Positions 33,520 through 56,722 of a DNA stretch of 64,000 nucleotides are shown piece by piece; position 1 is the stretch's first letter; every line of letters starts with the position of its first letter. The notes below the pieces were generated by a model, which was not told where the DNA came from, made no database searches, and worked only from the letters and a program-made list of their open reading frames with translations. A program made the position numbers and the translations under genes. This DNA comes from Microbotryomycetes sp. JL201. Its lineage: Eukaryota; Basidiomycota; Microbotryomycetes. The stretch is taken from NCBI GenBank assembly GCA_033819885.1, contig JAQYUZ010000030.1, forward strand, positions 151,902-215,901, given 5' to 3'.

Positions 33520-35212
<1,693 letters not shown>

Positions 35213-35564
35213 GCGGGGCGACGCGAACGGCACAAGCTCACTGGACCGATACGATACTCTGCATCAGCCGAGCCGTCAGCAGCAGTCAAATATTGCATCA
35301 GAGCATGATTGTGGGCTCACTGCATGGCACGACCATGGCTAGGCGAGTCTTGAAAGCGCTCGACCGGTATGACGTAAATGACCAATGCGTTCGGCGCAGT
35401 GTCCACTAGCGTATCGCACAACAGTCCGTCCTAGAAACGCCAAAATATACGTTTCTGCAGTGTTTACGGTCGCGTGCCGGCCGAGAACGTCAAATGGCAA
35501 AAAGAGGCCCGAACTGAAGTATCATGTCAAAATATAAAGTGTGTCTACGATCAGGAGGTTTGGT
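35213..35564. other. Intergenic: kinase promoter, decarboxylase 3' end
   Basis: About 350 bases upstream of the kinase start and downstream of the decarboxylase stop. Both genes run leftward. No gene or RNA signal is recognised. Confidence 0.45.
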
Positions 35565-37590
35565 TCACCCTTGCATCACGTCTTGCAACACTCTTTTGAC
35601 GATTGGCCAATCCTTTTCGATCGTTGTCGACCAATTCGAAACGGCAAACCGAATGCCATCTCGTCCGCGCCATTTCGTGCCGGTGCAATAAACCAAACGC
35701 GTGTCATTGATCGCCTTTATCAACAAAGCGCACCCTTGTTCGCCTTGAAACTTGGCAGGCGCTCGGTCGGACGGTCCGAACAAGACGATATTCATTTGAA
35801 CGAATCCGCTCGTCTCGTCAGGCGTTAGAATGTCGTACCCAGGATGCTCAAGCATGAATGTCGTGACAGTCTCTGTAAAAAGCAAATTGCGCTCGACGAG
35901 TGAAGCGTACCCATGTTTGCCGAGGGACAACAAGGATGCAAACACGGGCAAAGCTCGAAACCTCCTCGAGTTTTCAATGTTGAGTGTCAACGGAGAAGGC
36001 AACGTGCGGTACTCGTCAATGTGTGTGTAAGCGGTTGCGCCCGTGAACGGGGCCGATTTGAGATATGCGGGTGCGTTTGCGCCTGGCCCGCACAAGTCAA
36101 ACAGGCCGCTCGATCGTGAAAAGAATATGCCGCAATCATAAGGTACGTTCCTTTAGGTTCGTACGTGAGCCTCGGTCAAGACATCGAAACTCTTGAGACT
36201 TACAGCCCTGAAATGTCTTTGTTAGCGAGAAGGATCGAGGCCAAGCCGCGCAAACTGGCTTACATTTGTGCGCATCGCCCGTGATACTATCTCCAAGTGC
36301 AAGGTCGCTCGCGTATCGCTGAAATTTCTTGGCCAGCAAGGCAAATGCGCCGAATGCTGATAACATGACGAAAAGTCAGGAGGGCGCCACGCTTACACCA
36401 TGCGCCGACGCACCTGCATCAATGTGGAACCAAGCTTTGTACTGTTTGCACAAGGCAGCAATTTCTCTGGCGTTGCTTGTCCACCCGCTGGACAAGTAGC
36501 ACGACTCAACGAGGGCAACCTTGGTAGCGCACGCACGTTACTGACCCCGTGTTGACTTCTCCAACAGACAAGACGACGATACTGCCGCGGCCATCCTGGT
36601 CGTTCTCGGATAAATGCGCTTCCAATGCGGACAAGTCGAAATCGCAGGGCAAGACACTGGTTTTGTCGGTCACATCGACAACGTGCTTGCGACCGATGCC
36701 GACGATGGCGCACGCTTTCGCGATGCTTGCGTGTGCTCCTGCCACAAAGACTTGTACGTCGACGCCGCCAAGACCATCATCGGGCACGGACCACTGGTCG
36801 TGGCCACGAGCGCGGTGAATGTTTGCCACGACGGCGTCTCTGCCCAGGGCGATACCGAGTACGTTGGACCCTGTGGCTCCCGTCGTAAAGGTGTTGTGCG
36901 TAAAGTCGTGGCGAGACAGGTCGAGCATGTCGAGCAACCAGTTGAGCGTCAAGACTTCGAGCATTGACGCAATTGTCGTCTCCTGCATGCATGATTGGCG
37001 CCCGCGATCCAAGAGGTACAAATAGATCTCACATGAGTGTGCAAGCAGACGTTGGCATCGAACGAGGTGACGAGCTCGTCTGCGACATGTGCGGCCGGGT
37101 TGACGCCACCGGTCACGAGTCCGAACCACCTCGGACCTGCACAGTCGGCATGATTGTCAACGCAGGTTCGCGAGATCGGGAACAAAGTTCAAGCCTTGCC
37201 TGCGTTGCCTGGCATTAGAGCTGGGCACACCTTGTCGAGCAGCATATTCACCGTCTCTGGCGGCCGAAAAGTCATTTTGACGCCAGACGGTCTCTTCAAG
37301 ACAGTTTCAGCATGAACGTACCGTGTAATCCTATTCCGTCATCAGACAGCATGTAAGGAACGCTGTGGAGCGCCTCATCAATCAACTCTGCCGTTGCCGT
37401 CGTCGGCAGCGAGTCGAGGTGGATGACGCGCTCTTTGACGAGAGCGTTGACCCTGTCTAGCTGCTGAGCAAGCGTCGACGCATCTGCTCGGTCCCGCGTG
37501 GTTGTATGTTAGCTGGATCGACGGGCGAGAGGCCCAAGCGCACGAGAGATTAATGCGCGCCTCACCTGCAGCGGGGTCATGCACGTGCAT
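35565..37590 (-). CDS. PLP-dependent group II amino-acid decarboxylase
   Basis: Nine exons (37590-37566, 37483-37322, 37256-37200, 37136-37033, 36982-36546, 36487-36414, 36356-36264, 36207-36204, 36150-35565) give 513 residues, the usual family length. Key features are FGLVTGGVNPAA, TTGATGSNVLG, the cofactor-binding AWFHIDAAFGAF, and the Schiff-base lysine in DAHKWLNVPYDCG. Together they identify a group II decarboxylase-like enzyme (aromatic amino acid, glutamate or cysteate type). The reaction releases CO2 from an amino acid; the substrate is not resolved. Two oddities: exon eight is only four bases and completes the Trp-Leu of the lysine motif, and the intron at 37199-37137 starts with GC (GCAAGG). 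The intron after VNTG has two possible acceptors; I chose CCAG at 36488. It is cytosolic. Confidence 0.87.
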
Positions 37591-37948
37591 CACTGTCGTC
37601 GAGGTTCAAGTGAGGGGAGGCCACAGAGGAGAGGACAGAGAACACGGGCGGAATGCCGCTGGTTCGGGATCCGGCCCGGGTCGGGGTGCACAATATGAAT
37701 GGCGAACGGAGGTTTCGGGATGCGCGATCATTCTATCTGGACACTCTGAAGTCGGACGTCTTTCACGGCGTGATTCGTGTAAATGCTCCACAAGACCCGG
37801 CGGTGCTGAGCTCGGGCCGCATTGTCTCGCACCTGCGACTGTCCGCCCAGTGCGCGCGCGTGCGTGCCCGGTCTAGGCGCATGCAAGTCGAGCTGACGAT
37901 GCGACTGCTGAAGATGCGCTGCTGCTGACTGGTGTATTGGCTCTGCAG
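37591..37948. other. Divergent region holding the unresolved first exon of the SCY1 gene
   Basis: The SCY1 coding frame must enter at 37949 in phase 2, so a first coding exon lies upstream. Candidates are ATGs at 37695 (donor GTGCGC at 37850) and 37783 (donor GTGCTG at 37803). Neither gives a recognisable family N-terminus, so I left it open. The region is also the promoter of the decarboxylase gene. Confidence 0.35.
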
Positions 37949-40900
37949 GGAGTACGCAAGCGCCTTGTTCTCGGCCGCGTCGAGCCTCGCTCAGCGCGGA
38001 TTTGCATCAAACTATACGCTCCACTCGCAGCAGCAATCGTCGTCAACGTCGACAAGCGCGTCCACGCGCCCGCTGTACGTCGGCGTGTGGAAGGTGGAGC
38101 GCGCAACGCACAATGGGCCATCAAAGAAGCAAGTGTCGATATGGACATGTGACAAGCAGCAACTGGTCCAACACAACTCGAGACAGTCTGTCTCGTCTGC
38201 GTCACGGCACGACTTGGTCACAAAGAGGCTCGAGCGCGCCGTCGAAGTGCTCAAAAAGGATGTGAGTGCAAGCTCGTGGATGACATGGCTCTATCTCTCT
38301 GATCTCACATGTCTAGGCTGCGTCATTGTCACGCCTGAGGCACCCGTGCATCCTCGAGATGACGGAGCCTGTCGAGGAAACCAGGTCAGCTCGCGGATAG
38401 ATTCGCCTCTGAGCGCGCTCGCTCGCTGATGCGCAAAGTGCACAACAGATCTACGATCTCGTTTGCAACAGAACCCGTGACGGCGTGCCTCCGCCACTCG
38501 ATCTCGACCAGTGGCAGTTCAAAGAATGCAAACGAGCTCGAGCTGGACGAAGTAGAAATACAAAAAGGCTTGTCTCAGATCGGGAAAGGACTGCAGTTTT
38601 TGCACGAATCTGCAAAGCTGGTGCACGGAAACTTGACGCCAGACGCCGTCGTCATCAATGACAAGGTGCGCCGTCGGTGGCCACGCACCGATCGAGAACG
38701 CCACTGACCTCGACGCGACAATGCAGGGCGACTGGAAGCTGGCCGGGTTTGGCCTGTCGACATATTTGTTCGGTCCATCTGGCGCGCCCGCGAAATGGGA
38801 GTTTCCTGAATTAGATCACGCGTTGCCGTCAGCGGTCCAACGCGACTATGACTTTATCGCGCCCGAATACATTCTTGACGAGACTCCTCCAGCGCCTTCA
38901 AACGACATGTACTCGCTCGGTTGTCTGATCCACATGATACATTGCAAGTCGGGACCACCGTTCAGCAACCACAACTCGCTGCAGACCGCTCGGACAAACA
39001 TGGACGAGACATTGTCGCGCAATCTGCTCCGGACGCAGTGGCGCAGGCTGCCGGACGAGGTTCAGTCCGTCCTCAGTCAACTGCTCACCCGGTATCCGAG
39101 CTCGAGAATCAACGCGAGCAGCTTTCTGGCGCACCAGTATTTTTCCAACTTGCTCGTTTCGACGTTGAACTTTTTGTCGAGGGACGCTTTCAACAGTCAG
39201 ACGACGGAAGCGCAGACGAGCTTTTTGAAAGGACTCCAACAGGCGAGTTTTGCGTCTTGGTGTCGGGTATGCGCAACTTACCCCCGTTTGGCGCGCGCGC
39301 GCAGGTGCTGCCGCGGTTCAGCGACAAGGTCAACAGACGCAAAGTGTTGCCAGCTTTGCTCGAAGAAACTCGAAAAGCCAACCTCGTCCCGTTCTTGCTG
39401 CCCAACATTCTGTCGATCGCTGCCAAAATGGACGTTGACGCGTTCAGAGATCAAGTGTTGCCGAGTCTCAAACCGTTGTTTGCCCTACGTGAACCGCCTC
39501 AGGCCGTCATCAGCCTGCTCGACTCTTGCGGCATTTTTGTCGAAAAATGTTCGCCGAGCGTATTTCGGGAAGGTGAGCCGCATGCGTACGCCATGAAGAA
39601 CGTCAAGCCGAGCTGACGAGTTTGATGCAGAGGTCATGCCGTTGCTGTACATGTCGCTCGAGAGCGACAATCCTGTCGTGCTCGAGAAAGCGCTCAAGAT
39701 CGTGCCGCAGTTGAGTGAAACGCTCGATTACACGGTGCGTTTTCTGCGAGCGCGCTCGGCCTTTTTGCTGATCATGAGCGACCTTGACAGACTGTAAAGA
39801 CTACGCTGTTTCCAAAAGTGGCCACCGTGTTTTCCAAGACGACGCTGCTTAGCGTCAAAGTAAAGTACGTTGCCCATGTTTGGTTGTCCAAGACTCCACT
39901 GGAACTGAGGCGCTGCCGACAGCACGTTGATTTGCTTTCATTCGATGATTAAAACGCTCGACAAGTACACCTTGACCGAAAAACTCGTGCCGCTGCTGGC
40001 AAAGATCAAGACCAAGGAACCGGCCGTCATGGTAGCGACTCTTGCGTGCGCACAGCGGCGGCCACTTGAGCGTGATGCACGTCGACTGATTTGCGTTTGT
40101 GTGCAGGGTCCACGAGGCGATGGGCAACAAGGTTGAGATTTCTGCCAGTGCGTGCGCCTGAATAGTCACGCGCAGAATGTTTGAGCTGACAAACTGGCAC
40201 ACAGTCGCGACACTTATTTTGCCACAGCTTTGGGCCATGTCAATGGGCCCGTTGTTGAACATGGACCAATTTGAAAAGGTCAGTCGAGCGCAAACTGGAC
40301 ATCTATCGTCTCTAACGACTCTTTGCTTCCGCAACCAGTTCATGTCTGCGATCAAGAGACTTGGCGCTCGCGTCGAAGAAGAGCACACGAGGCATTTGAG
40401 AGAACTGAAGCGACTGGAAGAGTCGAACGGTGCAAACGCAAGACATCATGACGGCTCGGTCGATTTCGAAACGCTCGTCAAAAGTGGCGGCTTGGTCAAT
40501 GGCTCTGCGCGAAAAGTACAAAACGACTTGTGGGCAGACGACAGTCCTCGAGTGAGCGAGCGCATGTGGACGTTTCCGACTTGTGGAACGCTAATGTCAA
40601 GCACGCAGGCTTTGACTCCGGTCGTGTCGCCACCAATCACTCCTGCCTCGCAAAACATGTTTACGCCTGTGCCAAGCGCCGCCGAGGTCTCGAGGCCGAC
40701 GCACTCTTCTCGGCCGTCGTATGCCACAACCTCGAGTCGCTCGTCCCCTGCCCAGGCGTCGCATGCTTTCTCGTCCGTCCCGACGACGCCGTCAACGTCA
40801 TCATTGCAGCCCCAGTATCCTTCGTCGTTCCCTGCTGAACCGGCTGCCGCCAACTCGCTCAACTCGTTTGCATCGTTGCAACCGTCAACGACGACGCGAA

Positions 40901-41139
40901 CGCAAACGACCCCGAGTTACAAACCGAATTACAATCTCGGCGGTTCGGCTCCTCTTACTGGCGCAACCGTGAAACCTCAATGGAACGTCATTGCACCGCA
41001 AGCGAAACCGGCCACGATGGCGGCAGCTACGCCGCCGGGGTACAACGCTGGCCTTGCCGTACTCGAGCCTCAGGTTGTCGCGCGAGCAAAACCCGCGACA
41101 ATGGACTTTGCTTGGCAAGATTTTGATCCGCTAAAGTGA
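37949..41139 (+). CDS. SCY1-like pseudokinase (SCYL2 type), first exon unresolved
   Basis: Twelve exons (37949-38261, 38317-38384, 38449-38665, 38727-39242, 39305-39572, 39631-39734, 39791-39863, 39923-40045, 40108-40148, 40206-40277, 40339-40551, 40609-41139) encode about 846 residues, minus a short N-terminal piece. The kinase-like domain has VSIWTCDK, ETRSTISFATEPVTACL, the loop VHGNLTPDAVV in place of HRD, and GFG in place of DFG. It is therefore catalytically dead, as expected for SCY1/SCYL proteins. HEAT-like repeats follow (VLPRFSDK, TLICFHSMIK, TKEPAVMVATLAVHEAMGNK), then a Ser/Pro/Thr-rich tail. The family works in clathrin and TGN/endosome trafficking and tRNA export. The intron at 39243-39304 begins with GC (GCGAGT), and its removal restores FLKGLQQVLPRFS. 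The 57-base intron at 40552-40608 is in frame and stop-free. Confidence 0.85.
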
Positions 41140-41222
41140 TGACTTGATCTACGTTGTTGTAAGAAAAGAAGAAGTTTTGAGAATACAACCATTCGAGACA
41201 GAATGAAGCGTTACAAGGAGCA

Positions 41223-44200
41223 TTATCGACCATAGTACTGCTGTTGTGGTGGTGGCGCTCTTGGATAACCACCTTGCGGTGGACCTCCACCCGGTCCGCC
41301 ACTGTGTCGGAAAAGAGTCAGCAAGTATGCTCTTGCCATGACGCACACGCAGCTCACTTGTACATGGGTGTTGCATTCCCTCTGGAATACCTATAGATGA
41401 CAGACGGTGAGCCCACGTTGGGAGGACCCTTTGAGACAAGTCGGCCACTCACAATGGTGTCTGTCCACCACCTCCGTACAACATTCTCGGATCGGGCGTC
41501 CGTCCACCGCCAGGCACGTGACCGTGAGGCGTTCGACCTCCTGGTGTCCGCCCACCCCCGAGACCCGGATGCAACGGTGTTTTGCCGGTACGTCGAGGAG
41601 CTGGATTGGCGCCAGCTCGTTGGTAATAGTACAATTTGAATGCGTTTGTCTGCCCGGCAAGGAACTGTCAGCAACCGGCGCGAAGAGCAGACAAAACGAC
41701 TTGCCAACTCGACCATGTTGGCGCATTGCTTTTCGTTGAAGACGAACCCGCCCGGACGCAGTTGCACGGGCTGGGGCACGAGTGAGCGAACCCGGTCTCT
41801 TTCGGCACCACCGCACACAGACTCACAAAGTACACTGGAACCTGCTGGTGTTCATCGGCTCGGGCGCCAATCAGAAACTGTCCAGCTTTGCGAATGTCTG
41901 GATCGAAACAAAATCCGTAAAAGCCCTTGCCAGGATCGGCCAAGACGAGTTGACCGAGCCACGACTCGAGTTCTTTTTGTGTTCCTTTAAACTTTTCGTG
42001 CGCCATCATTTCGCCAGCCTTGGCAGACAATGATCGTATGTGTACTGCCAAAAGTTCGTCCAGGTCGCTGTAGACGGCGTTGCCAATCTTGAGTTTCGAG
42101 CCGAGCGAAAACTCGTCCGCCTTGTTCAGTTCGGCAACGGCCAAGTGTTGGTACACACCGTCCGCAATCTTCCATGTGACGGCGAGATGGTCTTCCTTCG
42201 AAGACGGCCGGATAACGCAATCTCCGCGCTGCATGTGCGCGAGGTACTGCTCTGCGCCACCACTGTCGACATTTTGAAACGCCGGATGGTTGATGACACG
42301 CTTGCGCGCGCCGGCTGCCTTTTTGTCCATGACGGACTGGGCCGTTCGTTCTGCATTGGCAGCCATTATGTCGTAGTACTGGTCTGGCCGGACTTGACGA
42401 AGCTCTTTATCGCCCATGCTGACGAGCTCTTCGCGCGAAGCGAGTTGGACTTCGAGCTTGTCGTAGTCAATTTCGATGAGTTGGGCCTGGATCGTCTGAC
42501 CGACGCGCGGCGGCACCATGCTACGGTAGTCTGCCGGAACAATGCCCATCATTCCAGAATCGAGTCGGCACATGACGCTGCCATCGTTCATCAACCTGAC
42601 CACGCGAGCGGGCACGATCAAGCCTTGCGCGAGCGTCGACGCGCTTTCGCCCGTCAACATGGCAAAGACTTCTTGCGGTCGAGGCACTGCATAGTCTTCG
42701 CGGTTCTCGCGGTACGGGTGCCGCAGCTCGTCTCGGATCATGTACAGCGCCAGGCGCTTGGGCTCATTGAGCATGCGCTGCAGCTCGACCGCAAAGTCGT
42801 CCAAAGACAGTTCAAACAGCTTGTCCGTGTCGTTTTCCATGAGGTCAATGACGGCCTGAGACTTGTTGTTGCTGACGTCAATGTCTTCCTCGTCGAGGTC
42901 CATCGCGTCCGAGGCCATCTTGCGCGCAATCTCGTACTCTGCCGGATGGATACGCGTGTCGTCGAGCACCTCGTTATTTTCGGCGTCTTCGCGGCCTAGA
43001 TCGGCTTGAAGCTCGTCTTGCGGGATGCGCAAGAACGAGGCAACGTTGATGAATATATTCTTGCCGAGGATGTTGCGCAAGACGAGCGACTCGCGCGTCG
43101 ACAAGGTTCCACCGATGGCGAGCTGGATGCGCTTGATCAAATGGTCTGCCTTGCGCAACCCGAGACCAGATACGTATGGCAGAAGCGACGCATAGTACTG
43201 ATTTCGAAGCGCGCGATTAATGTCGACGCCGACCTTGTTGACGACTTCGATCAAAGCGCGTTCAAGATGGGACCGCAAGACTGTAGGCGAGACCTGCAAG
43301 AGATTGTCAGATAAACGAAATCGTCCCGAGTTGGTCTCTGACACTTGCAAACTTTTGCGCCGGATCGTACGTGACGGCCGTCAGGTCTTGACCCAGCGCG
43401 GCGTACTCGTGCAGTGGCGACTGTGCGAAACGCGCCAAGCCGACGCAATACTTGGCGATTTTGGGCAGCTCTGGAAACTCGGTCGAGCCGTGTGCCGAGT
43501 TGCTGAATATTCGTGCAACGTCGTCGTAAACGTAGACTGTGTCGAACTGTGCCCGCCTGTGCAAGTCGTCAGGCGAGAGCGATTCGTCTTCGTCTTGGTC
43601 CGTCTCGTTCTGAGCAATCTCGTGTGAGACCTCTTGCGCAATCTTGTCGAAACTGTCGCGCAACCGTTTCGTGTTTGGCGAAAAGCCACCGATGACGACG
43701 ACTTGAGGTCGTCGCCGCTTGAGCAGTTCGGTCAACGTTTCTCGATCGGCGTTGGACACGTTGAACAAGTCGCCAATTTTGACATGTTCGCGCAGGTAGC
43801 CTTCGCTGTCGAGATAGACTAGTGTCGTATCGTCGCGCTGCGGGTCGCCGGCGCCGTGAGACAGGGCGAGCACAGACGGCACGTCGCCCTTTTCCATCGA
43901 GCCGTCTCGTCGACAGTACGGAGCAACGTTGATGCGCTAGTGAGCACAAGGTCAGCACGTGTGCGACGCGAAAAGCCGGGCACAGACTGACCTGGTACAG
44001 TTTCGACGAGCACAGCTCGCCCACGAACCGCTCCTCTTCCTCTTGAAGCCACGTCTTGGCCCACTGCTCTGCTGCAGGGATAATGTGCTCGTCTATGGCC
44101 GCGTCAAGTACCGTCTGCCTGAACGCATTCCATGCATCGGCAACGGACGAGTCGGCGTCGGTAATGTAGATTTCTTTTAACTGGTCGCAGTACCGCTCGT

Positions 44201-46842
44201 ACGCGCGCTCAGGCAGTCTTAGCCTGCATTCGACGAGGCCGTCCTTTTCAGCCGTCATGATTTGCAGAAACTGGCTGGTGCGCAACAGTTGCGTAAGCGG
44301 TTTCTCGTTCAAGTATTTGAAAGCCTGCGAATGACGTTGTCAGCAGCGCGTCATTGGATCCCGTGCGGGCGCGGCAGACGTACGTAAAAAGGGTGCATTT
44401 CGTCGATTTTTGTTCGGCCCCGGTCCGTCGGAAGGACGTTGGCGACGGCGTAATCGACAAAGTATCGCCGAGCGGCGCGTTTCAAGAACGGGTCGCGGCT
44501 GAGCTCGTGCACGAGTACGAGTTTGGCGGCTAGAAACGGAATGTCAGCCCGAGAGGCACTTTTAGGGCATGGGCGCGCGCGCGACTTGCCTGCCAGGGCA
44601 GACTGTGGCGTTGAATACGTTGTGCCGTCGCCGCTGTAGATCTCGGCCAGCTCGTCAGGGTCTTGCTCGGGAAGATCGTGGCTGCCGACGGTGAGTCCGG
44701 TGGTGAATCCTCTGCCGACGACTGCCGCGTCCGGTGCGGCGAGCTGCGTTCGAGCGTCAGCGGAACGTTCACGCCGTGCGAAACAACCGAGACTGACCTG
44801 GGCAAATTTGGCAATGCTGGATTTCTTGGCAATGTCGTACGCGCTCTCGCGCGTTGCGCGTTTTTTACGTACGGGCATGCCTTCGACCTCTAGCGCAGCG
44901 CGTTCGTCTTGCTCTCGTTGCTCGCGCAACTCTGCCAGCTTGGTTGCGTACCGCGTCGACACCCACTCGCTGAGATCGGCGACCTCTTCAACAGACTCGA
45001 GGCCTTCGAAGCATTCGTCAAAATACTCGTCGTGGTCGACATTGAGCGACAAGAACAGTTGACGCAACTCGCGTCGCTTGTCGGCAAACGCTCGATACTT
45101 GATCGACTGCGCCTCGACGTGCCACAAGTCTTCTCGCGTCAACAATGGCTTGTCGGGCACCGGTTCCTGCCCTTCGGCGACTTGCTCGTGATGGACGAGG
45201 TAGTCGGCGCGATGCTGTACAATGAACGGAATCTCGAGGAAATCAACGTTGATAAACTTGAGGACTGCTTCAAGACAGTCCATGAAAGGCTTGTGTAGAG
45301 GCGGATACTCGTCCTGGTCGTTTTGAACGAGAAACTGTTCGGCGACGGCAGAGCCGAGCCGAGTCGAGACCCATTCTGCTGCGGCCGGCAGCTCGGTGAC
45401 TGGAATGAATGGCAGTAGGTTGCCTTGCTCGTCGGTTTCTGGCATTTTGATTGTTGCAGACTGCAGCTGCATGCGTTCGGGAATGTCGACGCGCCGGACA
45501 ATGTCGTCTGCTTCTGTGAGCATGCGCGATGCGATCTGTGACGGTTCAAAGATCTGCAAAGACGACGGTCAGCTAGGTTTATTTGGCAGCAAAATGCCGC
45601 CTCACATCTTTGAGCTCTTTGTTGTCCTTGTCGGGTTCGTCGTCACTCTCCAATGCGAACGCATAATCTTGTCCGTTGCCAAAGACGTCTGTGACCTCTT
45701 GCCAGTCTTCTTGCGAGATGCCTTCGATTGGAGCGCCGGCCAAGCCTGCCCTTCTGCCTCTTTTACGTTCTTTTTGTCGTCGAGCGCGCCTGGCTGCTCG
45801 TTCCTCGTCGTCCTCGTCCGAGCCCGCTCCAGATTCGGATTGCGTGTCGTCTTCGATAAAGCCAGCCATCTCGTCTGCAAACTCGTTGATCACGTCATTG
45901 TCCTCGTCCTCGCTAAAGATGCGGTTCAAGCCTTGACCGGAGCGGTCTGAGCGATCAGAGTCTGAACCGACAGATTTGCGTCGTCGGAGGCGCTTTAGTT
46001 TCGGCTGTATGCGCGCGCAGGTCTCAGCACGAGTGAGCGCACGCCCGAGTCGAGGAGGAGGCTCACCTTTTTGTGCGTCAGTCTGACACCCGTGTTTTCT
46101 TCGAGCAGGGCGAGATCGTCCTCGTCAAGGTCTCCTCCGTCTGAGCATTGCGCGCAGGCCGGGTCAGCAGGTGCGAGATATGGCGGGTATACGTTCAGAC
46201 TTGCCATCGTCACTGTCCTTTCTCCGCTTGCGAGATCCTTCGTCTCCGTCGTCGCCCAGCTGACGCTCGCGGCGTTTCCTCTCGCGGCGTTTCTCCTTTC
46301 GTCGACGTCTCTTTTCTTGTATCTCGTCTTCATCAACGATAAAGTCTGCGCTCGAGTGGCCGTGAAGGACAGTGTGAGCGCGCACGCTCGCAAACGGGTC
46401 TAGCTCGTGGAGGGGCCCAGACCAAGCCAAACTGACCTTTTCTGACACGACGTTCCTCTTCCGAGTCGTCTTCATCTTCGTCCGAGCTGTCTTCGTCGCC
46501 CGTGTTGTCCCCCATGAGGTCAATCCCCCGCTCGTCCTCGTCCTCGTCCTCGTCCGCGTCGTCGTTGTCGTTGTCGTCGTCGCCGTCACGGTCACGAGCT
46601 CGTGCACCTTTTGGACGAGCGCCAGCCATGTCCTGTGCCGAGCAACGTGGTCAGCTGGCTGTCGAATCATGTTTACGGCATGTTCGCGCAAGAGCCGCGA
46701 CAGAGTGCACACGGGCGCAGGATGTGCGATCCGACAAGACCGAGAGATGAACTAGACTTACGTCGCGCATGGTCACGTCGCCGTCGCTGTCGTTGTCACG
46801 CGACGCTGACCTCGAAGCGGCCGCCGCCGCGACTGACGACAT
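41223..46842 (-). CDS. SPT6: Transcription elongation factor Spt6
   Basis: Fifteen exons give 1569 residues: 46842-46762, 46632-46437, 46345-46205, 46140-46067, 46004-45606, 45553-44798, 44743-44590, 44529-44384, 44324-43992, 43936-43349, 43293-41827, 41770-41705, 41649-41453, 41390-41358 and 41301-41223. The very acidic N-terminus, the helix-turn-helix and YqgF-like core (PQVVVIGGFSPNTKRLRD), the helix-hairpin-helix (VNKVGVDINRA, YVSGLGLRKAD), the S1 domain and the tandem SH2 module (GDCVIRPSSKEDHLAVTWK) are in the Spt6 order. The C-terminus is Gly/Pro/Thr-rich with GGRTP repeats. Spt6 is a histone chaperone that travels with RNA polymerase II in the nucleus. Four introns start with GC (46204, 44589, 43348, 41704, all GCAAGT), each set by phase and family alignment. 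Two introns (44797-44744, 44589-44530) are in frame and open. Confidence 0.92.
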
Positions 46843-47032
46843 GGTCACGTCTGATCACGTCGTGGTCACACGCAAACAGTCGAGCGCGCACGTCTTGTTA
46901 AAAGGTAGGAGCCGGGCTCGGTCGGTGGTCTGGGTCAAAGCTCAAGCCGGGCGCCGTCCGACGCAGCAGCAGCAATACACGCACGTAAAAAGGGCAACGG
47001 TTGCAACACAAATGACACTAAACATGTATCCC

Positions 47033-49604
47033 TTAGATCTTTTCGACAGCCTTTTTCGGTCTCAAACTGTTTTCGTACAACTGTTTGATTTGGTCGGCAA
47101 ACTTTTTGGCTGCCACGTTTCTCTTGGTCTTGAACGTCGGCGTCAACAAGTCATTCTCTGACGTGAACGGATCCAGGTGCAAGTACAAGTCGTTGCCGAT
47201 CGCTTCGTACTTGAGCAAACGAGCGTCCGTCGCATAGGGTTCAAGTTCTTTTGCAAACGCTTTAATGACCCGAGCGTCGCGAGACGCTTCGAGAACGGCG
47301 GCAGCGTCGGTCGGAGAGATGGTCTTTTGCAACACGCGAGAAGCGAACGGGGCGAACCGTTCGGGGTCGGGGACGACGATGGCGACGACATGGTCTTGGA
47401 GCGAGTCGCCGTGAATGTAGATTTGTGCGATCCTGCACATGCGAATCAGGACGAGCACACCCTTTCCCGGGAGCGAGCACACTCACAGCGGACACAGACC
47501 ATACACGTTCTCGACCTTTTCAAGCGCGACGTATTCGCCCTGACTGAGTTTGACCAAGTTTTTAATGCGATCGATAATCTTGAGCCTGCCGCATTCGTCA
47601 ATCAAGCCAATGTCGCCAGTGTGCAGCCAACCGTCTTGAGTTATCGTCTCGCGCGTCTTTTCAGGTTCGTTGAGGTACTCGGTAATGACCATGCCGCCGC
47701 GCGACATGATTTCGCCTCGTGGGTATGGCTTGTCGGTCGTAAAGTATTCCATCTACAGGCATCGGAAAAAGTCAGCGACATTCTCGTCAACAGGAATGAA
47801 CGTACGTCGGGCACGTCAACGAGCTTGATCTCGACGCCGGCGCGAGGCGGACCGACCGTGCCGTTTGGCTTGTTGTCGTGCTCGAGGCACACGACACATG
47901 TTCCACAATTTTCAGTTTGTCCGTAACCTTCTGTGACGGTGCACGAGAATGCGACTTTTAAAAAGTCGAGCACGTCGGGGTTGATGGGCGCCGAACCAGA
48001 CGAGATCCACTTGAGCCTGCCGCCGACAGCCTTTTTGACCTTGCTGAACAAGATGCGGTCCCAAACGGCATGAGTCACGGCGCCAGTCTCGTTCAAGTTG
48101 TACAGCTTGTCGCTGAACGCCTTGCGAGCCAATTTGCCCTTGAGACCCGGAGCGTCGACCGTCGCAGCCTTGAGAGCTTGGTAAATTCGGTTCAGCACGC
48201 GGGGAACCGATGCGAGGATCTGCGCACAGGGCGTTCAGTTGAGGATTCATCCGGACGATCTGGACAACTTGCCGTAGGCTGCAGCAGCTGCATGTCTTCG
48301 AGCAGACGCAAATTGTCACCGCACGAGTACCCAACGGCTACACCGGCAGTGAAGCAGCAGTCTGACAAAGGAAGAGGACCGGTGAGCATTCGTGACGGAC
48401 GACTGATGAACGAGACTGTACCTTCACAGAACCGCTCGTAAATGTGCGACAGCTGTGCAGAGGTGTGTCAGCGACGCGTTTTCTGCGGGCGGGGCGAGTG
48501 ACAGCTTACTGGCAAGTACGAGAAAAAGACTTCGCCAAGTGCCATTGATCCGCCGTGCAAGTTGGCCTGACGGCAAACGGGTCAGCTCGAAATACCGAGG
48601 TTGGTGACAGTTGTGACTTGCAACAGCGGCCGACGCGAGCGTCTTGTGGCGCAGTACAGCGCCTTTGGGGTTGCCGGTCGTCTAAGATAGATGTCAGCCA
48701 GCAGTCGGGCGGAGGAGACGTGAACGTACACCCGAGGTATAGCAGATCATTCCAATGTCTTCCGGAGTCGGAGGCAAGTGGGGACGCGGGTTGGCTGCTC
48801 CCAACGCTTCGACTGTGATGACGTGTCAGCTATCGGTCGGTGTGCGCACACGGGGCGTACCTTCGGCAATATCCATGACGAGGACATCATGTTGCGCGCC
48901 CCACTCTTTGAACGCTTGCTGCGTCGACGAGTGTGGTCGAGCCGACTTGTTTGCGATGCTGTCCCACGTGTCGACGCTGACGATGGCCTTGACGTCCGGG
49001 ATCGACTTGCTCAGTTTGAGCAGCTGTGGCAAGTGCGTTGATGCGCAAAACACGATTCTCGTCTTGGAATGGTTGATGCAGTACTCGACAACGTTGGGTC
49101 CGAGCGTGTCGTACAGCGACACGAGCGTGTTGCTGTACGCCGTAATGCCCTGGTTGACAATTTGCCATTCTAGAATACGCACAAGCTTGAGTACGTGCGA
49201 AAGGCATGCATGCAGTGTGAGAACGGACCTGGCCTGTTTGTGCACCAAATTCCAACGACAAAGTGGTCCGTCACGCCTTGGCCGAGTTTGCCGTCTTGCG
49301 CGAGCTTTTGAATGCCTGCACCGACGTTTGTCCTGCGCTCGGCGACTTGCTTGTACGTCTGCCATTCGTACGTTGGCGCCCAATCACCCTTTTGGGCGTC
49401 CCAAGGTCGGCTGCCGAGGCAAGGCGCGTCCGCAGAATGCGCGAGACCGAGCTCAAAGCCGGCATACGTCGTCGTGACGCCGTGCTCGGTCAAATCGGCG
49501 TTGTAGAACGCAGCGCTCTTGTACACGGGCGTCTCGCCTTTGCCGCCAGTGCCGGGCACGGGCTGCGCACCGCGAGACGACGGATCGCGAACAGGGTAGA
49601 GCAT
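47033..49604 (-). CDS. Long-chain acyl-CoA synthetase
   Basis: Ten exons (49604-49229, 49169-48861, 48812-48730, 48681-48622, 48566-48510, 48452-48422, 48361-48273, 48219-47806, 47752-47487, 47432-47033) give 694 residues, the size of yeast Faa/human ACSL proteins. The AMP-binding P-loop [47 protein letters not shown] and [21 protein letters not shown] are all present. The enzyme activates fatty acids with ATP and CoA, feeding lipid synthesis, beta-oxidation or import. There is no clear peroxisomal C-terminus (ends in KAVEKI). Two introns start with GC (48621 and 48272, both GCAAGT), supported by phase and by SAAVANLHG and [17 protein letters not shown]. Two introns are only 48 bases long. 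The stop lies 190 bases from the Spt6 start, with both genes leftward. Confidence 0.92.
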
Positions 49605-50044
49605 AAAGTCAGTTCAATGTTGCGCGCGCGCGCAAAGAAAGGTCGGTGTTGCCTCAGGAGCACGGCCCTCGTCCGTCCTCGCCCCCCACTCTTGCCTCGG
49701 CCCCGGGCGGGCGGTTTCAATCGGCAAACCTGCGACCGTATACGATAACTCACCAAGGCTTGCTTGTCAAGAGGCACGGTAGGGCATGGGATCGGGTAAG
49801 GGTTCGGCATCGTGCGTGCGTCGTCGTGAAAGAACCGGCGAGCCACGTCCGAGAGCACATTGTCTCGACCGGCTGCGCACTCGGTTGCTATGCGCTGCCG
49901 GCCGGAGGACGTTTGTACAGACAGAAAAAAAAGGAGCAAGGTGACTGCGTTGCATCATGCGAAACAAAGTTGTTAATTCATCATTGATGGCTCTCAAAAT
50001 CGACTGCAGGCAAAGGGGACACGATTAGCAGGTCTCGCAAACAT
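49605..50044. other. Intergenic: promoter of acyl-CoA synthetase
   Basis: 440 bases between the acyl-CoA synthetase start and the mL44 stop. It contains a short (GC)n-like run near 49621-49632 and an A run near 49924-49932. I found no gene. Confidence 0.45.
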
Positions 50045-51901
50045 TCATTGGACAGCAAAGGACGCACCCTCGACGTCACCCAAAGAAATGCCTTGAGACG
50101 ACGAAAAGGACGAATGGCTTGGCAAGTTGATCGGCGCTTGACCACCGGCCAAGTAGAACCGTCTGAGCGCGTCTTCGCTCGCCCGCCACTCGCTCATCTT
50201 GATGCTCGTTCCGAAACCTTCGCCCAGTTTGACGTCTCCGCTGAAAACTCCACTGACAAACGTTGGATGTGCGCTCTGTCGACCGCTTTCTTTCAATAGC
50301 CTGTGAACGCTCCTCGGTCGACCGTGCTTGGCCAGAGTGTCGGACAAGACTTTGGTAGGGTTGGTGAATTTGAGCAGTGACTGAATGTCTGTGGCGGCAA
50401 TGGCAGACGGATGCGTTGCAGTTGGACTCGTCAGCAGTCTGTGTAAAAAGTGCGCGTGAACAAATGCCCGTGTCGCCTCGAGTCCCTGCGGTACGCGCAC
50501 GCGTCAGCACAAGCGGGTGCAACGAGATGCAGGCCGGCACATACATGCGTGGTATAGATGGCGCCGACAATGGCGCGCGCGACGGATGCGAGCGCGTCTT
50601 CAAGAAGCACGGCATCTTTGAATGGCGTCGTAGGCTGACGATTCCAACGGACAAGTCCCGAGCCGGCTGCACCCTCGATCGCTCGGTCTTTTGGTCTTGC
50701 TCCGCCAACGCCGCCAACGAGGTGGCCGTACGCCCGCTCTTTTCTGCTCAGCCGTATTGGTTCGTCGCGACCTACGTCTCGCAGGTCAAGCCTGGTCGGC
50801 TTGACGCCCCATGCTGTTGCGACCGCGGCTAGCGATTTCGGTCCGGCATACATGCTCAAGGCCGCTTTCGATACTCGCGTCGGGAGGTTGGGAAACGATG
50901 TCACTAGCAGTTCCGACGTCAATGTGCCCAGAAGGGCGTTTCCGAGGGTGGCGAGTGCGCCGTTGTGTGCACGAGCAGGAGCAGCAGACGGAGACGTGGC
51001 GAGCGGTGCGTCGTGAAATTGCGTATACCGATGTTTGTGACTGGCCGTCGGCAAAACGGCGACGCCGTCCCAGAACGACGGATGAATCAAGCATTGCTCG
51101 ACGAGGGGCAGATTGTGTGCGAGCGAGTGTGTCGGTGCCGACGGACCCAATGAGCTTGCGAGACGGTTTGCCAAGGCCGAGATTGCAGAAACAGGTGACG
51201 GGTTGGTATACGAAAACAATAGAGATAGTTCGCTGTGCGACAAACTCGGCCGTGCGACTGCCTCGTCCTCTGTGACTGTGATGGCTTCAGGTTCGTCCGA
51301 ATCTGCAGCTGAAGGTACAGTGTCCATCGTCGCGCCAGTTTTTTGCTGTCTCCTAATCTCTGACGGTATCCGACTTGGTGGAGTGATTGCAGCGTCGAGA
51401 GTGTAGCTGGACGACGTCGCTGTCGAGCTTGCTGTTGTCGCATATGCTCTTGCGACTGCAAAAAGGCAAGCGTTGGGCGTCAATCAAACGTATGAGGACA
51501 CGCGGGCGTGCAGGTGCAGGCGAGGGCGTGATTGCCCTGAGCAATAAAAAACGCGCGAACGCCGCACAGCGGACCTGTGCAATGCGAGGCAGTCTCGGGT
51601 GCTCGGACATGGCTTGCAGCTGGATAGGAGCAGACAAAGGCATGACCTCCCCAGGCAAGGCGGGCTGTCCGACGATGGCGCCAGTGAACGACGCGGCACA
51701 CGACTGGCGCAGGAGCGACAGGTGCACCACTCGTCGAGTCGAAACGCATAGGACAGCGCTATACGACATAGAAAGGGCTCTGAGCAAGTAAGATCTGAAA
51801 GACTTGCCTGTGCAGTCTGCAGCGGCCGCCGATCGAGAAAATTGCCCGCTGGCGCCGACGACGCTCTGCCGCACGCTCGCGGCAAATCGACGGGCGACCA
51901 T
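50045..51901 (-). CDS. Mitochondrial large ribosomal subunit protein mL44 (RNase III-like fold)
   Basis: The supported exons are 51455-50545 and 50485-50045. The chain has a presequence-like start (ARAYATTASST), an RNase III-like region (LPLVEQCLIHPSF, AALATLGNALLG context, YAGPKSLAAVATAWGV, EDALASVARAIVGAIY) and a dsRNA-binding-like tail (SVHRLLKESGRQSAHPTFVSGVFSGDVKLGEGFG). This combination is typical of mL44/Mrpl3, a structural protein of the mitoribosome that is not a nuclease. The first exon is a proposal: 51901-51808, encoding MVARRFAASVRQ and followed by a GC donor (GCAAGT). It joins in phase and adds a basic, arginine-rich mitochondrial leader. The resulting 352-base intron is the longest in the window, so an additional or different first exon is possible. 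With this exon the protein has 481 residues. Confidence 0.75.
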
Positions 51902-52489
51902 ACCACGTGTTTGCAAAGGGATACAGGTGGAGCGGGAGTAGAGGTGGGACGTCGCGAAAGCGCGGTCGCGTCCGCGCACGGCCCCATTTTTTTTTTGCCT
52001 CATTTACAATCACTGTCTTGGACGAGCCAGAACACTGTAGAAAGGATTATTTTGCTTGTGCTTGCTCTAGCAGCGGGGCAGCGGGGCATCTAGGTAACCG
52101 CCTGGTGAGACGCCTCGAAGCCAAACTACAAGCAAGCCGCGACCGTGCCACGCTAGAGATCAAGCTAATCCAGAGATGGCATGCATCGAAAGAGTGCAGG
52201 GTAGAAGCGCCGTGCAGGCGAGTCACGTGACCTGGCGGACGAGGTAGCAAGCAATCACGTCAAGCCGATAGGGCCATTGAATTCGGTTTATTCACAGCCT
52301 GGGAGCCCGAATGCCTCGCCTCGAAAACCCAGACATTTAACGCTTGGATATCAGCGCGGGCCGGGTGACGCGAGTCGCCAGCCTCCTCGCCATCACGCGT
52401 TTGTTTCGACGGCGCAGTAACAAGGGCCGGCTGTGATTCTTTTTATCGCTCACTGGACATATAGGCAAACCGTTTTGGACTCGAGGGTG
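51902..52489. promoter_or_regulatory. Divergent promoter region
   Basis: 588 bases between the proposed mL44 start (leftward) and the phosphodiesterase start (rightward). It has a T run at about 51987-51996. Frames entering from the mL44 side are open but show no domain. No RNA gene is seen. Confidence 0.4.
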
Positions 52490-54937
52490 ATGCGTTCGCG
52501 AGGCGACAAGACACTGCCGGTGCCGCCGCTGCCGCCACGAACGACGCCCATCGAAACACGAGCGTCCACGCCACCCGTGACTGTTTTTGAGCCGCCAGAC
52601 GAGCTCTTGTCGGCAAAAGACGCAGAGAGGCAAGCGCGACAATGGTGGGAGGACAATTGCGCAGTCGTGCGGCTGGACGGTTGGCGCACTCGTCAACATG
52701 ATCCAGCGTTTGACCTGCTCGTCATTGTAAGTGCATCCGGCGAGTGTGATGGCTCGCCTGAGGAGCTGCGCACGAGACATTCAAGGGCCGTGCAACGTCT
52801 CGAACCGAAAGGGCTCCACATCCCGAATCCGCCGAGCTGTCTGACGTGAATCATTCCGCAGGGTTGCGGTGGCGGACCTCTCGAGACAAACTTGTCTTCG
52901 TACCTTGTCAAGCCCTACTCGACGAAATGGACAGACGGTTGCACGTCGCTCGAGGGTGCGTCCGCTCAGTCGCCGGCCTCGTGATAAAGAGGGAATGAGG
53001 CTGACACGACAGCACCGGCATAGGTGGCTCTACGATGGGCGCCATTGCCACACTCGTCGAACAACATCCGCACTCGTTTGCCGGATTCAATCTCGACATT
53101 GGCGTCGACTTTGAAGAACAGCACCAGTTGCTCGCAACATTGCCGCCACCTGTGCCTTCCAAGGAGCCTGGCCGAATCTCGAGACCAAAGCCGCGACAGA
53201 GGCGGAAGCCTGTCGGCGTTGGCAGAGAAGGTGGCGGACGGTCCGCAGGACGTGTGTGGGACACGATCAGGCGAGTCTGCCCCGCCTTGTCGAGCTCGCC
53301 TGTGACGACGCTCATGCTCTACCTTTAAACAGATCGTTTGCCGTCACGCATGCGCATCTGGACCACATTCTAGGCCTCGTCATTTCGTCCGGCGCTTCGT
53401 TAGAACCGAGGCCACTGTACGGGCTGCCAAGAACGCTCGACAATATCGACAGAGTGTTTGACGGTGGCGTGTGGCCAAAGCTCGCCGGCTACGAGTCGGA
53501 CGGCGTCACCGTTGGGCGGGCGTACCTCTATCGAACGTAAGCAGGCACCCACTTTTTGTCTGCCTTTTGCTGATGCGCTTTTTTTCTTAGCATTCAAGAC
53601 GATGCGGACAAGAGGCCAATGGATTTGTCTCCTGGGCTATCGTTTACGGCGCGTCCCGTCTCACATGGCATGGACCCGTCCATGTTTTTCGCCGCAAAGC
53701 GGCAAGCGGCTCAACACGCCAACGGATCGTCACAGGCTGAAACGTACGATTCAACGGCATTCTTTGTCAAAGAGTCGGTCACTGGTCACGGGTACGAGTT
53801 TTTGTTCTTTGGGGACGTCGAGCCAGGTGAGCATATGGGTGTGCAGGTTTCAGGTCCGTTACTCAGTCGAGCTTTCACAATAGATTCCATCTCGAAACGA
53901 CCACTTACCCGACACGTCTGGCAAGAGGCTGCGCCCAAAATTGTCGCTCAAAAACTGTCGACCATCTTTCTCGAGTGTTCGTATCCGGTGAGTCGGTTCC
54001 CGGCGACCACAAACGTACGTCTGACGCAGTGGGCCTGCAGACGACACAGCCGACGGAAAAACTTTGGGGACACTTGTCTCCGCCGTTCATGTTTGAAGAG
54101 CTTGGCACATTGGCACGATTGGTCGTACAAGAACGCGTGGCTCGGGGATGGGACCGAGCAAACGCCGAAACATTGCCGCTGCAGGGTGTGACAGGTAGGC
54201 TTGTATCGAAAGAGACGAATGTACGGGCTTGCCGACACTTTGTTTGCAGTCGTCATTATACACATCAAGGACGATACGTTGCCGCTTGCATCGCACGATT
54301 CGCACGACACGTCAGACGATCCCGAGAGCTCGGGAGCGAGTTCTAGGGACGTTTCGCCGGCTCGACCTCTGTCTCTTTTGACTCTGGCTCCACCCGAGCC
54401 AACTCGACCTGCACGCCGACCGTCGTCTGCTTACACAATGTCGCCTTTTTCTTGGGGTGCGAAACGACGTTGGCTCGAATCGACACCCCCTGTACCTGCA
54501 GCTGAAGCGCCGTGCAGACGGGCGTCGATTCCTTGGAACGTTGGCAGTGGAGGTTACGGATTTGGCGTGGCTGGTACACTTTCTCCTTCGTACGACGAGC
54601 TCGATCAGCCGTCGAGGCACAAGTCGCTGCCTGGTCACGACGACGCGGGCGCGGCGAGAGCCGGCGGCGGAGGAGGAAGCGCGGCCAGATCCGGCGACGC
54701 TGGCGACGACGCGAGAGAGGTTTCGGGAGGGCCTTTCGGGGGGAACGCGGAAGACGTTGTCATGGAGGAAGAAACTGTTCACGAGCGGATCGAACGAGAA
54801 TTACACGAGTTGGAGCACGAAAAGAAATTGGGAGTGAATTTCTTGAGGGCTGAGCAAGGGATGAGGATTGGTGAGCCGGTCGTGTGCGTTCGACCCCGAG
54901 TCGAGCTGACGGTTTGCGGGGATTTGCAGTGTTTTAA
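52490..54937 (+). CDS. Low-affinity class II cyclic-nucleotide phosphodiesterase (PDE1 type)
   Basis: Nine exons (52490-52726, 52862-52953, 53024-53270, 53333-53536, 53591-53826, 53884-53987, 54041-54193, 54250-54870, 54930-54937) give 633 residues. The metallo-beta-lactamase-type core shows GCGGGPLETNLSSYLVKP, the metal motif THAHLDH within SFAVTHAHLDHILGLVIS, LFFGDVEP with the metal-binding Asp, LECSYP, GHLSPP and VVIIHIKDD. This is the PDE class II family that hydrolyses cAMP (and cGMP) in the cytosol, damping PKA signalling. Residues 270-330 and the C-terminus hold insertions rich in Arg, Ser and Gly. The intron at 53271-53332 starts with GC (GCGAGT), needed to join TIR to SFAVTHAHLDH. 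The terminal exon is only eight bases; if its intron is retained the protein ends 24 residues further on. Confidence 0.87.
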
Positions 54938-54986
54938 CCGGTAGCAGATTTTGCCAGCGAGTGTCTATTTGCATTACGAACGAGTG

Positions 54987-56722
54987 CTAGCCTACACCAC
55001 CGCCTCCTCCGCCTTGGACTCCGAGCGCCCTCAACGCCACCTCGAATGTTGCTGTCGTGCAACGCGCAAAAGTCAGCAGCCCGGTCGTGAGCGCGCACGC
55101 AAAGGCAAAGGCACTTGCTGATTGTTGCAGCACTTCCGACAAAGCTGCTGACGACCGTCGGTCTGATGCCTCTGAGGAACCCTCTCAGACCTAGAATTCT
55201 CAGCGTTAGTTTTTCGGCCCTCTTGTCTGGTGCAGGTCTGCCATCGACGAGTTTGGGTCCTGCGCGTTCTCGAGACTTGTAGACGTAGGTCGAAATAAAG
55301 TTGTACAAGAAAGTTGATGAGTATCTGTACCGCCAGGCAGCCACGCCATCGGCGTGAATTCCTTTTGCGACAGAACCGATTGTCAAACGTGAGGCCGTCG
55401 TTGTTGCAGTGGTATATATCGGCGTGGTATGCGTCGCAGGTCCCCGAGCTTCAAAGTTTGCGGTTTGCAAGCGAGTTTTGATAATGTCGAACCTGACGAA
55501 CAAAGTTTTGAGCCGCGTCAAGTGAAAGAGTCGTTGGCGTGGCTTACGGGTAAGGCAACACGGCGCTCAGTGCGCCTGCGAGACCGCCCGCGAACAAGAT
55601 TCTAAGAATCTCGCACCGGTCTTGTGCCCTGGGCGGCAGAGGCGCTGGAGTGTCGGCGAGCGTTGTGAGATTAGGGTTCGGGTCTGACGCAGTAAACGGG
55701 TGCTCTCCTCTGAGCAGCCTTCGAAACACAAAGTCTGTTTCGGTATCAGTAGTGAGCGAGCGCAGCGCCAGACACGTTCGACAGACTGACAACCCCAGAA
55801 AAAGATGCCACTGCTGATGCCGTCGTGAATCGCCGTCATGAGTCCGCCTATGTAAAACCCGCGCAAGCCTTCCTTTTTCGCAATCGCGCGGGCGATTTTG
55901 AACGAGCCCAGCTTTTGGCCTGTGCCTTGCTCGACTTGGGCTCGACATTTGACAACTTCGATCTGGGACCAGGGAAAGGTGAGTGGATGTCGGAGCTCGG
56001 AAGCGGACGACTTGCTGGAGTTTCAAGCATGGCGCAGATACCTCCAGCTGCTGCACCTGCCGCGAATACGCGCCCGAGTCCGTTTGGATCTTGGCGATCT
56101 TGCCCTAGTTCTGCCCTGCAAAGTAGAGTCAGCGAGTGCGCGTGTGCACGAGGTACGGTACTGACATTGCTCTGCCGTACAAGCCAAAGAATGCCGAGTC
56201 GATGAATGCCAAGCCGAGAATGGGTCCGGCTGCGCCTGCAAAAAGAAATCTGACGCCTTCGGTCCTCCAAAGCGTAGCCAATCCTGGTCTCTGTTGCGCT
56301 TGGTGCAGTATGGCAGTGGTCGCTCCCTGTCTCGACAGTGAGGATGACGATGTCGAGGTCGAGGTCGTTGGCGGAGGTGAAGACCGGCCGACCCTGTTGC
56401 TCGGTACTCGCTCCTGCGTCGCGGCTGCGTGTCCTGATGCTGCTATTGCTGCTGTTGTTGCTGCTGCTGCCGGTGTCGCCTGAGTCTGCAAACGAACCTT
56501 GAGCACTTCGAGGCTGCACACATTCCAGCCGGTAAGTCAGTCTGGCACGGACGGTCCGGAATGGGCCTACGGATTGGACACGAGAATGCCAACTGTAAAG
56601 CTCGAGATTAGCGGCATGACAGTGGTCGATGGACAGTGAGCCTCACCTGCGCCGCCCAACCATCCGGCAATCAAGTCGCTCGTCGTGTCGACCTCACCTG
56701 CACCGGCCGAGCTTTCTGCCAT
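54987..56722 (-). CDS. Mitochondrial carrier family (SLC25) protein
   Basis: Eight exons (56722-56647, 56592-56571, 56513-56166, 56115-56016, 55962-55791, 55734-55548, 55492-55119, 55051-54987) give 447 residues. The three-fold carrier signature P-x-[DE]-x-x-[KR] appears as PLEVLK, PIEVVK and PFDIIK, each at an exon junction. The paired glycine-rich helices are also present (AGWLGGA, FAAGAAAGGICA, LFAGGLAGALSA). The protein exchanges metabolites across the inner mitochondrial membrane; the substrate is not evident. It is longer than the usual 300 residues because of an Ala/Ser/Pro-rich insertion after the first signature and extra linkers. The introns at 56015-55963 and 55118-55052 start with GC (GCAAGT). 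The second exon is 22 bases. The ATG at 56722 is 117 bases from the start of the divergent Ssf1 gene. Confidence 0.85.

Follow-up and report, generated by a model that had tools for sequence, protein, structure and literature searches.

Genes and introns of the window

The 64-kb stretch of DNA analysed here (positions 1–64000, referred to below as the window) carries intron-containing protein-coding genes, and about a tenth of the introns predicted in it appear to have GC donors. The gene content includes Spt6, a class II phosphodiesterase, an AMP-binding acyl-CoA synthetase-like enzyme, a mitochondrial carrier, tubulin cofactor E and a striatin-like protein, and the median length of the GT introns is 58 bases. 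Gene content and intron length both fit a fungus, from which we infer that the DNA is fungal. The data examined were the window, profile libraries, PDB sequences and published papers.

Introns were placed with a purpose-written, splice-aware gene finder that was trained on the window's own sequence. In the first gene model all non-GT donor dinucleotides had the same low prior (0.004), and 141 introns were placed: 127 with GT donors, ten with GC, and one each with AC, AT, CG and GG. The core observation of an earlier reading of this DNA (the original prediction), that GC-AG introns are unusually many, largely holds; no non-GT dinucleotide other than GC was used more than once, although all had the same prior. 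Eight of these ten donors were among the twelve listed in that prediction, the other two being at 8868 and 30842. With a GC prior of 0.08, 140 introns were placed and ten of the twelve listed GC donors were found (all except 43348 and 51807). The estimate of about 130 introns in the window was a fair one, given the 141 and 140 of the two models and the 122 that remain after filtering. As a control, the 15 non-GT dinucleotides were each allowed in turn at a prior of 0.07. The model then placed 19 GC donors, 15 of them in a consensus-like context, against 2–8 donors, 1–3 of them in such a context, for each of the other 14. GC donor use in the gene model is more than chance.

The candidate GC-AG introns are as follows, each with its donor written as exon/intron.

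8806–8868, minus strand: GC-AG intron, donor TGG/GCAAGC, tubulin-cofactor-E-like gene; found in both gene models; outside the region reported earlier
30780–30842, minus strand: GC-AG intron, ambiguous but plausible, donor GTG/GCAAGT, striatin-like gene; found in both gene models
37137–37199, minus strand: GC-AG intron, likely, donor CAG/GCAAGG, pyridoxal-phosphate (PLP) decarboxylase gene; retention gives a stop
39243–39304, plus strand: GC-AG intron, likely, donor CAG/GCGAGT, SCY1-like kinase gene; found in both gene models
41650–41704, minus strand: GC-AG intron, donor TTG/GCAAGT, Spt6 gene, SH2 end
43294–43348, minus strand: GC-AG intron, donor TTT/GCAAGT, Spt6 gene; possibly replaced by a GTCAGA donor 6 bases downstream
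44530–44589, minus strand: GC-AG intron, donor CAG/GCAAGT, Spt6 gene
46141–46204, minus strand: GC-AG intron, ambiguous, donor ATG/GCAAGT, Spt6 gene, acidic N-terminus; weak GTATAC 12 bases downstream
48220–48272, minus strand: GC-AG intron, donor ACG/GCAAGT, acyl-CoA synthetase-like gene (AMP-binding)
48567–48621, minus strand: GC-AG intron, donor GTT/GCAAGT, the same acyl-CoA synthetase-like gene
51432–51807, minus strand: GC intron of the earlier list, unsupported, RNase III/mL44-like gene
53271–53332, plus strand: GC-AG intron, donor CAG/GCGAGT, class II cyclic-nucleotide phosphodiesterase gene; retention gives a stop
55052–55118, minus strand: GC-AG intron, donor TCA/GCAAGT, mitochondrial carrier gene, last repeat
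55963–56015, minus strand: GC-AG intron, donor CCA/GCAAGT, mitochondrial carrier gene

Counts given below refer to a curated set of 122 introns, 13 GC and 109 GT. The set excludes ten GT introns whose margin was low or whose length exceeded 200 bases, among them 43342, for which 43348 was substituted on homology. Nine weak GC candidates placed by the model with a GC prior of 0.08 (14571, 17139, 23753, 37883, 49652, 60471, 61378, 62035 and 63419) were left uncounted.

Protein homology at the GC junctions

At ten sites the isoform made with the GC donor was compared on Pfam with its best alternative. The GC form was ahead at eight sites and tied at one (37199), and at 8868 Pfam matched neither the GC form nor the alternative. 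Alignments to PDB sequences are gap-free at the junction for 8868, 41704, 43348, 44589, 48272, 53271 and 56015. In an exhaustive scan, every donor and acceptor position, with any donor dinucleotide, was scored against the homologue sequence only (208–779 pairs per site). The GC junction ranked first alone at five of the ten sites and shared first place at two; at 8868, 53271 and 37199 it was beaten by 1, 1 and 6 pairs, respectively.

Three GC introns of the Spt6 gene are each the unique best junction in the scan, among 315 (41704), 295 (43348) and 381 (44589), and at each of them two Spt6 chains align without gaps (7xn7 and 6gmh for 44589). The corresponding Pfam scores are 175.2 bits to SH2_2 against 169.2 for the GT alternative at 41704, 107.9 against 101.5 bits to HHH_7 at 43348, and 42.3 bits to Tex_central_region against 27.0 for the retained form at 44589. 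Both gene models favour the GT neighbour (43342) of 43348. The fourth candidate of this gene, 46204, was chosen at a GC prior of 0.08 and not at 0.004, and its retention gives a stop.

In the acyl-CoA synthetase-like gene, the GC form scores 127.7 bits to AMP-binding at both sites, against 105.6 at 48272 and 78.5 at 48621. The junction at 48272 is the unique best among 241, while 48621 is one of two equal best among 208, the other being an overlapping weak GTTGCA donor 3 bases upstream. In the mitochondrial carrier gene, 56015 scores 63.9 against 59.3 bits to Mito_carr, aligns without gaps to UCP2 and UCP1, and is the unique best among 779 junctions; the intron interrupts the P-x-[DE]-x-x-K motif. 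The donor at 55118 is one of three equal best among 779 junctions, and its GC form has a Mito_carr score of 17.9 bits, under the curated cut-off of 22.3, the GT alternative having no match. In the phosphodiesterase gene, 53271 scores 75.1 against 71.2 bits to PDEase_II, and the spliced sequence RVWDTI/RSFAVTHAHLDHI aligns gap-free with phosphodiesterase 1 (4ojv). Its scan score of 112 is exceeded by one of 209 junctions, and the top GT alternative reaches 109.

Outside the region reported earlier, tubulin-specific chaperone E (9m1j) aligns across the junction at 8868 without a gap, and one of 561 junctions outscores it; the scanned stretch holds no GT alternative, and retention scores 48 against 70. 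The gene containing 30842 has a Striatin domain; retention of this intron gives in-frame stops, and a rival, weak GTGGCA donor lies 3 bases upstream. The claim of the original prediction that GC introns are absent from the first 37 kb was thus wrong, 8868 being supported by alignment and 30842 plausible.

At 37199, a search with the GC-frame isoform aligned the upstream exon to tryptophan decarboxylase 1 (6khn), with a single gap. The two forms tie on Pfam (24.5 and 24.5 bits), six of 247 junctions outscore the GC junction, none of the six having a GT donor, and the retained form, at 75, falls just short of the 77 of the GC form. The intron at 39243 is 62 bases long, so that retention shifts the frame. 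The part of the protein around this junction has no PDB or NCBIfam match, and its single Pfam match, below threshold at 15.7 against 15.3 bits, is uninformative. The gene at 37.7–41.1 kb is presumably SCY1, as labelled in the original prediction, searches showing a kinase-like part only; human SCYL2 probably aligns gap-free at 39243. The donor at 51807 was rejected: neither model (prior 0.004 or 0.08) chose it, and its 376-base intron appears only when forced. Profile searches found no significant domain over this junction.

Taken together, protein homology supports eight of the twelve listed GC donors (41704, 43348, 44589, 48272, 48621, 53271, 55118 and 56015), three of them by ties or small margins (48621 and 55118 tied, 53271 with a small lead over GT). 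Among the others on that list, 37199 and 39243 are likely, 46204 is ambiguous and 51807 is unsupported. Over the whole window, a predicted GC donor paired with an AG acceptor is found at nine sites supported by homology and at four that are likely or ambiguous.

Frequency of GC-AG introns

The GC share of the curated set is 13/122, or 10.7% (95% confidence interval (CI) 6.3–17.4). If only the sites supported by homology are counted, the floor is 9/122, or 7.4% (CI 3.9–13.4), which is above 1.85% (p = 0.0005). In Ganoderma lingzhi 1.85% of introns are given as GC-AG (PMC11590231), in Trichoderma longibrachiatum 1.7% (PMC4324775), and GT-AG introns are put at 98.7% across fungi (PMC7072748). The predicted GC-AG share of the window is several times that of either of the two named species.

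Architecture of the donors

The GC donors have a strong downstream context. The motif RAGT at +3 to +6 occurs in 11 of 13 GC donors and 18 of 109 GT donors (p = 1.4e-6), and in eight of the nine GC donors of the homology-only set (p = 1.6e-5). The more restricted AAGT is found in nine GC and seven GT donors. AG/GCRAGT occurs in three of the 13 GC donors, whereas AG/GTRAGT is absent from the 109 GT donors. The exon ends in AG at 4/13 GC and 27/109 GT donors, and −1G is found at 9/13 and 50/109, respectively (p = 0.097).

Most donors deviate from GTRAGT at a single position: among the 122 donors, 18 have no mismatch, 81 have one, 21 have two and two have three. Shuffling the columns gives an expectation of 35 perfect donors against the 18 observed, and the observed variance is half that of the shuffled sets. 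This depletion of perfect donors is also found in GT donors alone (18 vs 30.5 expected) and in the 76 high-margin GT donors (14 vs 25.2), and so is independent of the GC calls and of how GC donors were ascertained. The commonest donor hexamer, GTCAGT, belongs to the +3C class and accounts for 19 of the 109 curated GT donors; this class is unusual and nearly always matches the consensus fully from +4 to +6. Of the 25 GT donors that carry a pyrimidine at +3, most of them GTCAGT, 23 have +4A and 24 have +6T; these 25 follow the one-mismatch rule as the GC donors do. The mean number of U1 pairs is 6.09 for GT and 6.19 for GC donors, and would be 7.19 for the latter were +2 a T. Given T at +2, the predicted U1 duplexes of the GC donors are stronger than those of the GT donors (p = 0.004).

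In other respects the GC introns resemble their GT counterparts. The best branch match is CTGAC in eight of 13, the rest being close to CTGAC, and the branch score shows no difference from that of GT introns (p = 0.58). The distance from the branch A to the intron end is 13–24 bases, the acceptor is CAG in 12 and TAG in one, and intron lengths are like those of GT introns. U12-type introns carry an [AG]TATCC donor and a TTCCTTAAC-like branch site. By inspection, with no U12 model run, such features are absent, all 13 donors being of the GCRAG type and the branch mostly CTGAC. If left unspliced, 11 of the 13 GC introns shift the frame or give a stop, while 44589 and 8868 keep the frame without stops.

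Merged gene models and other searches

Three gene models on the minus strand probably join two genes each. Model 5610–10504 links a tubulin-cofactor-E-like part, through a 458-base intron call, to an end sequence similar to that of its neighbour, model 381–3334 (minus strand), and is probably two genes merged by the gene finder; we take the similar ends to be GAF-like. Model 33520–37590 combines a PLP decarboxylase with a kinase-like protein, and model 47033–51327 an RNase III/mL44-like protein with the acyl-CoA synthetase-like enzyme; both are probably mergers. No Rfam family reached its gathering score within the window, a plasmid search with a 1301-base stretch gave no match, and an Spt6 query against viral and GTDB contigs gave no confirmed relative.

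Recognition of the 5′ splice site

The features described above are probably best explained by ordinary U2-type GC-AG introns at an unusual density, with a spliceosome that tolerates a single donor mismatch and counts +2C among those permitted. The 5′ splice site would be read by its total pairing with U1 and later with U6, and any one mismatch at +2, +3, +4 or +6 would be tolerated. Sites stronger than needed may be avoided or eroding, a change from T to C at +2 being one route of erosion. Since this change would be nearly harmless in strong sites, GC sites could accumulate by drift. In some strong human contexts +2C is functional (PMC12805630). As judged from sequence, the GC-AG introns of the window are a known kind of intron at unusual density. 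The original prediction had offered two ideas, relaxed 5′ splice-site recognition and regional mutational bias; the former is the better of the two, in the form of one-mismatch tolerance at +2, +3, +4 or +6.

A stronger version of this reading, which we regard as rather doubtful, is that +2 has nearly lost its special status in this lineage. With AAGT at +3 to +6, C would then be as acceptable as T, total U1 pairing would be selected to stay near constant, and GC (at +2) and GTCAGT (at +3) would be equivalent carriers of one mismatch.

Several results weigh against one-mismatch tolerance with abundant GC-AG introns. Forbidding a GC donor costs the prior-0.004 model no more than 0.2–4.1 nats, a small margin where the median cost for a GT donor is 4.5, and no GC donor is chosen once donor context is removed from the gene model. 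Donor context therefore drives the model's preference for GC, and reading phase alone does not force GC introns; reading frame as sole proof of GC donors was rejected, and the original prediction's statement that they were forced by reading phase was too strong. Of three GT introns put through the homology scan as controls, 44383 alone came out first without a rival, with 237 better pairs at 41826 and 26 at 43991, so that the scan is informative only in well-conserved stretches. GC donors in a strong context are easier to detect, and this ascertainment makes the RAGT contrast look somewhat larger than it is. The mean duplex energy of the actual GC donors is −2.84 against −4.03 for GT donors, a difference that 13 donors do not resolve (p = 0.31), and the column-shuffle test on duplex energy is marginal (p = 0.03). 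Outside 37–56 kb the GC share is near the ordinary fungal rate; hence the genome as a whole may not be rich in GC introns, and the excess in the region may be local or due to chance.

Alternative explanations

The second idea of the original prediction, a regional mutational bias, would mean that AT-to-GC mutation or biased gene conversion in 37–56 kb converted GT donors to GC. Inside 37137–56015, 11 of 48 introns have GC donors, against 2 of 74 outside, an odds ratio of 10.7 (CI 2.3–51). The G+C content of the region is 57.1%, against 54.5% in the part preceding it, and that of its introns is 58.2%, against 52.4–52.5%. Some algae combine high genomic G+C with abundant GC-AG introns (PMC3033335). 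The intron C/T odds, however, rise only from 1.21 outside the region to 1.47 within it, a 1.2-fold difference that falls far short of the 10.7-fold one in GC donors. GC introns are no richer in G+C than GT introns (p = 0.88) and do not differ in local 2-kb G+C (p = 0.16), and G+C content was rejected as their cause. None of the curated GC introns lies in the last 8 kb, the most G+C-rich part, from which four weak candidates had been dropped. Base composition is too weak an explanation of the GC-donor excess, and regional bias is poorly supported and improbable.

The cluster reported for 37137–56015 stood in part: it is significant near the size reported earlier (p = 0.0035) and not when the size is left free (p = 0.072), with p = 0.0435 if seven weak candidates are added and a Fisher p of 0.0136 in the homology-free set. 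We regard it as suggestive and not as a firm feature. Over positions 1–64000 as a whole, G+C climbs from about 54% to 60%, and intron G+C from 52% to 61%.

Another explanation is a changed recognition component (a U1 snRNA variant, U1C, Prp8, U6 or U6 methylation) that specifically loosens the reading of +2 or +3. The excess of GC over GT donors in the AAGT context and the rank of GTCAGT as the commonest hexamer would both agree with this, as would the exon ends, AG being found at four of 13 GC donors only, unlike the human pattern MAGgcaagt (PMC12805630). On the other hand, the 5′ end of putative U1 genes is described as unchanged in algae with 22% and 40% GC-AG introns (PMC3033335), and a mismatch rule requires no new component. 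We give such a change a chance as slight as that of regional bias.

Misread junctions, with the real donors at nearby GT sites or the sequences retained, would account for the loss of all GC donors from the context-free model. GT competitors lie 3–12 bases away at 30842, 41704, 43348, 46204, 48621 and 56015, the two introns that stay in frame without stops could be retained, and the scores of the GT alternative at 53271 and of the retained form at 37199 are close to those of the GC forms. Against this, Pfam favours GC at eight of ten sites (with one tie and one without a match), and the scan places it best or tied best at seven of ten. Several of the competitors are weak (GTGGCA, GTATAC, GTTGCA and GTCTGC), and retention loses 15 bits at 44589 and much of the alignment score at 8868. 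Misreading is a little less probable still as an explanation of the introns together.

The Spt6 gene (minus strand) has tandem GC/GT donors at 43348/43342 (6 bases apart) and 46204/46192 (12 bases). Both spacings preserve the frame, so that alternative 5′ splice sites are possible. That the GC introns are regulatory, through such 5′ choice or through poor splicing under some conditions, is very improbable, since failure to splice would bring a frameshift or a stop at 11 of the 13, and since several of them are in core genes, Spt6 among these.

Comparison with known systems and significance

The introns of the window share with known U2-type GC-AG introns the GC donor, the AG acceptor, the strong +3 to +6 context and the ordinary branch score and length; they differ in density, making up 7–11% of the introns in 64 kb. 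Human GC-AG introns are given as about 0.9% (PMC12805630), and human GC donors are described there as MAGgcaagt, whereas the exon does not end in AG at nine of the 13 donors of the window. High shares are listed for algae (PMC3033335): 39.6% in Aureococcus anophagefferens, 22.2% in Micromonas pusilla and 7.7% in Chlorella. The likeness to these genomes lies in a share far over 1–2% in G+C-leaning sequence. Genomic G+C is 69.5% in A. anophagefferens and 65.9% in M. pusilla (PMC3033335), compared with 53–60% in the window, and the algal figures are genome-wide, whereas the present one comes from 64 kb of sequence judged fungal by gene content.

Two classes of 5′ splice site with compensation between exon and intron have been described, in which anti-correlation of consensus bases limits total pairing (PMC11732430, PMC10599564). 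The window resembles these systems in its anti-correlated consensus bases and in the absence of AG/GTRAGT from its GT donors. The compensation described there is between exon and intron, with positive coupling within the intron side, whereas in the window it is also found within +2 to +6.

Gene finders that accept only GT donors would break about a tenth of the introns in the window, including some in Spt6 and other core genes. As a hypothesis, the one-mismatch rule is simple and could be checked directly with genome-wide data. If +2 has indeed lost its special status, looser proofreading of this base, or a variant form of U1 or U1C, would be expected to act across the whole genome of this fungus. 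Should the whole genome show the rate seen here, GC-AG introns would be several-fold commoner than usual at a moderate G+C content, and the fungus would be a tractable one for asking why +2 is strict elsewhere.

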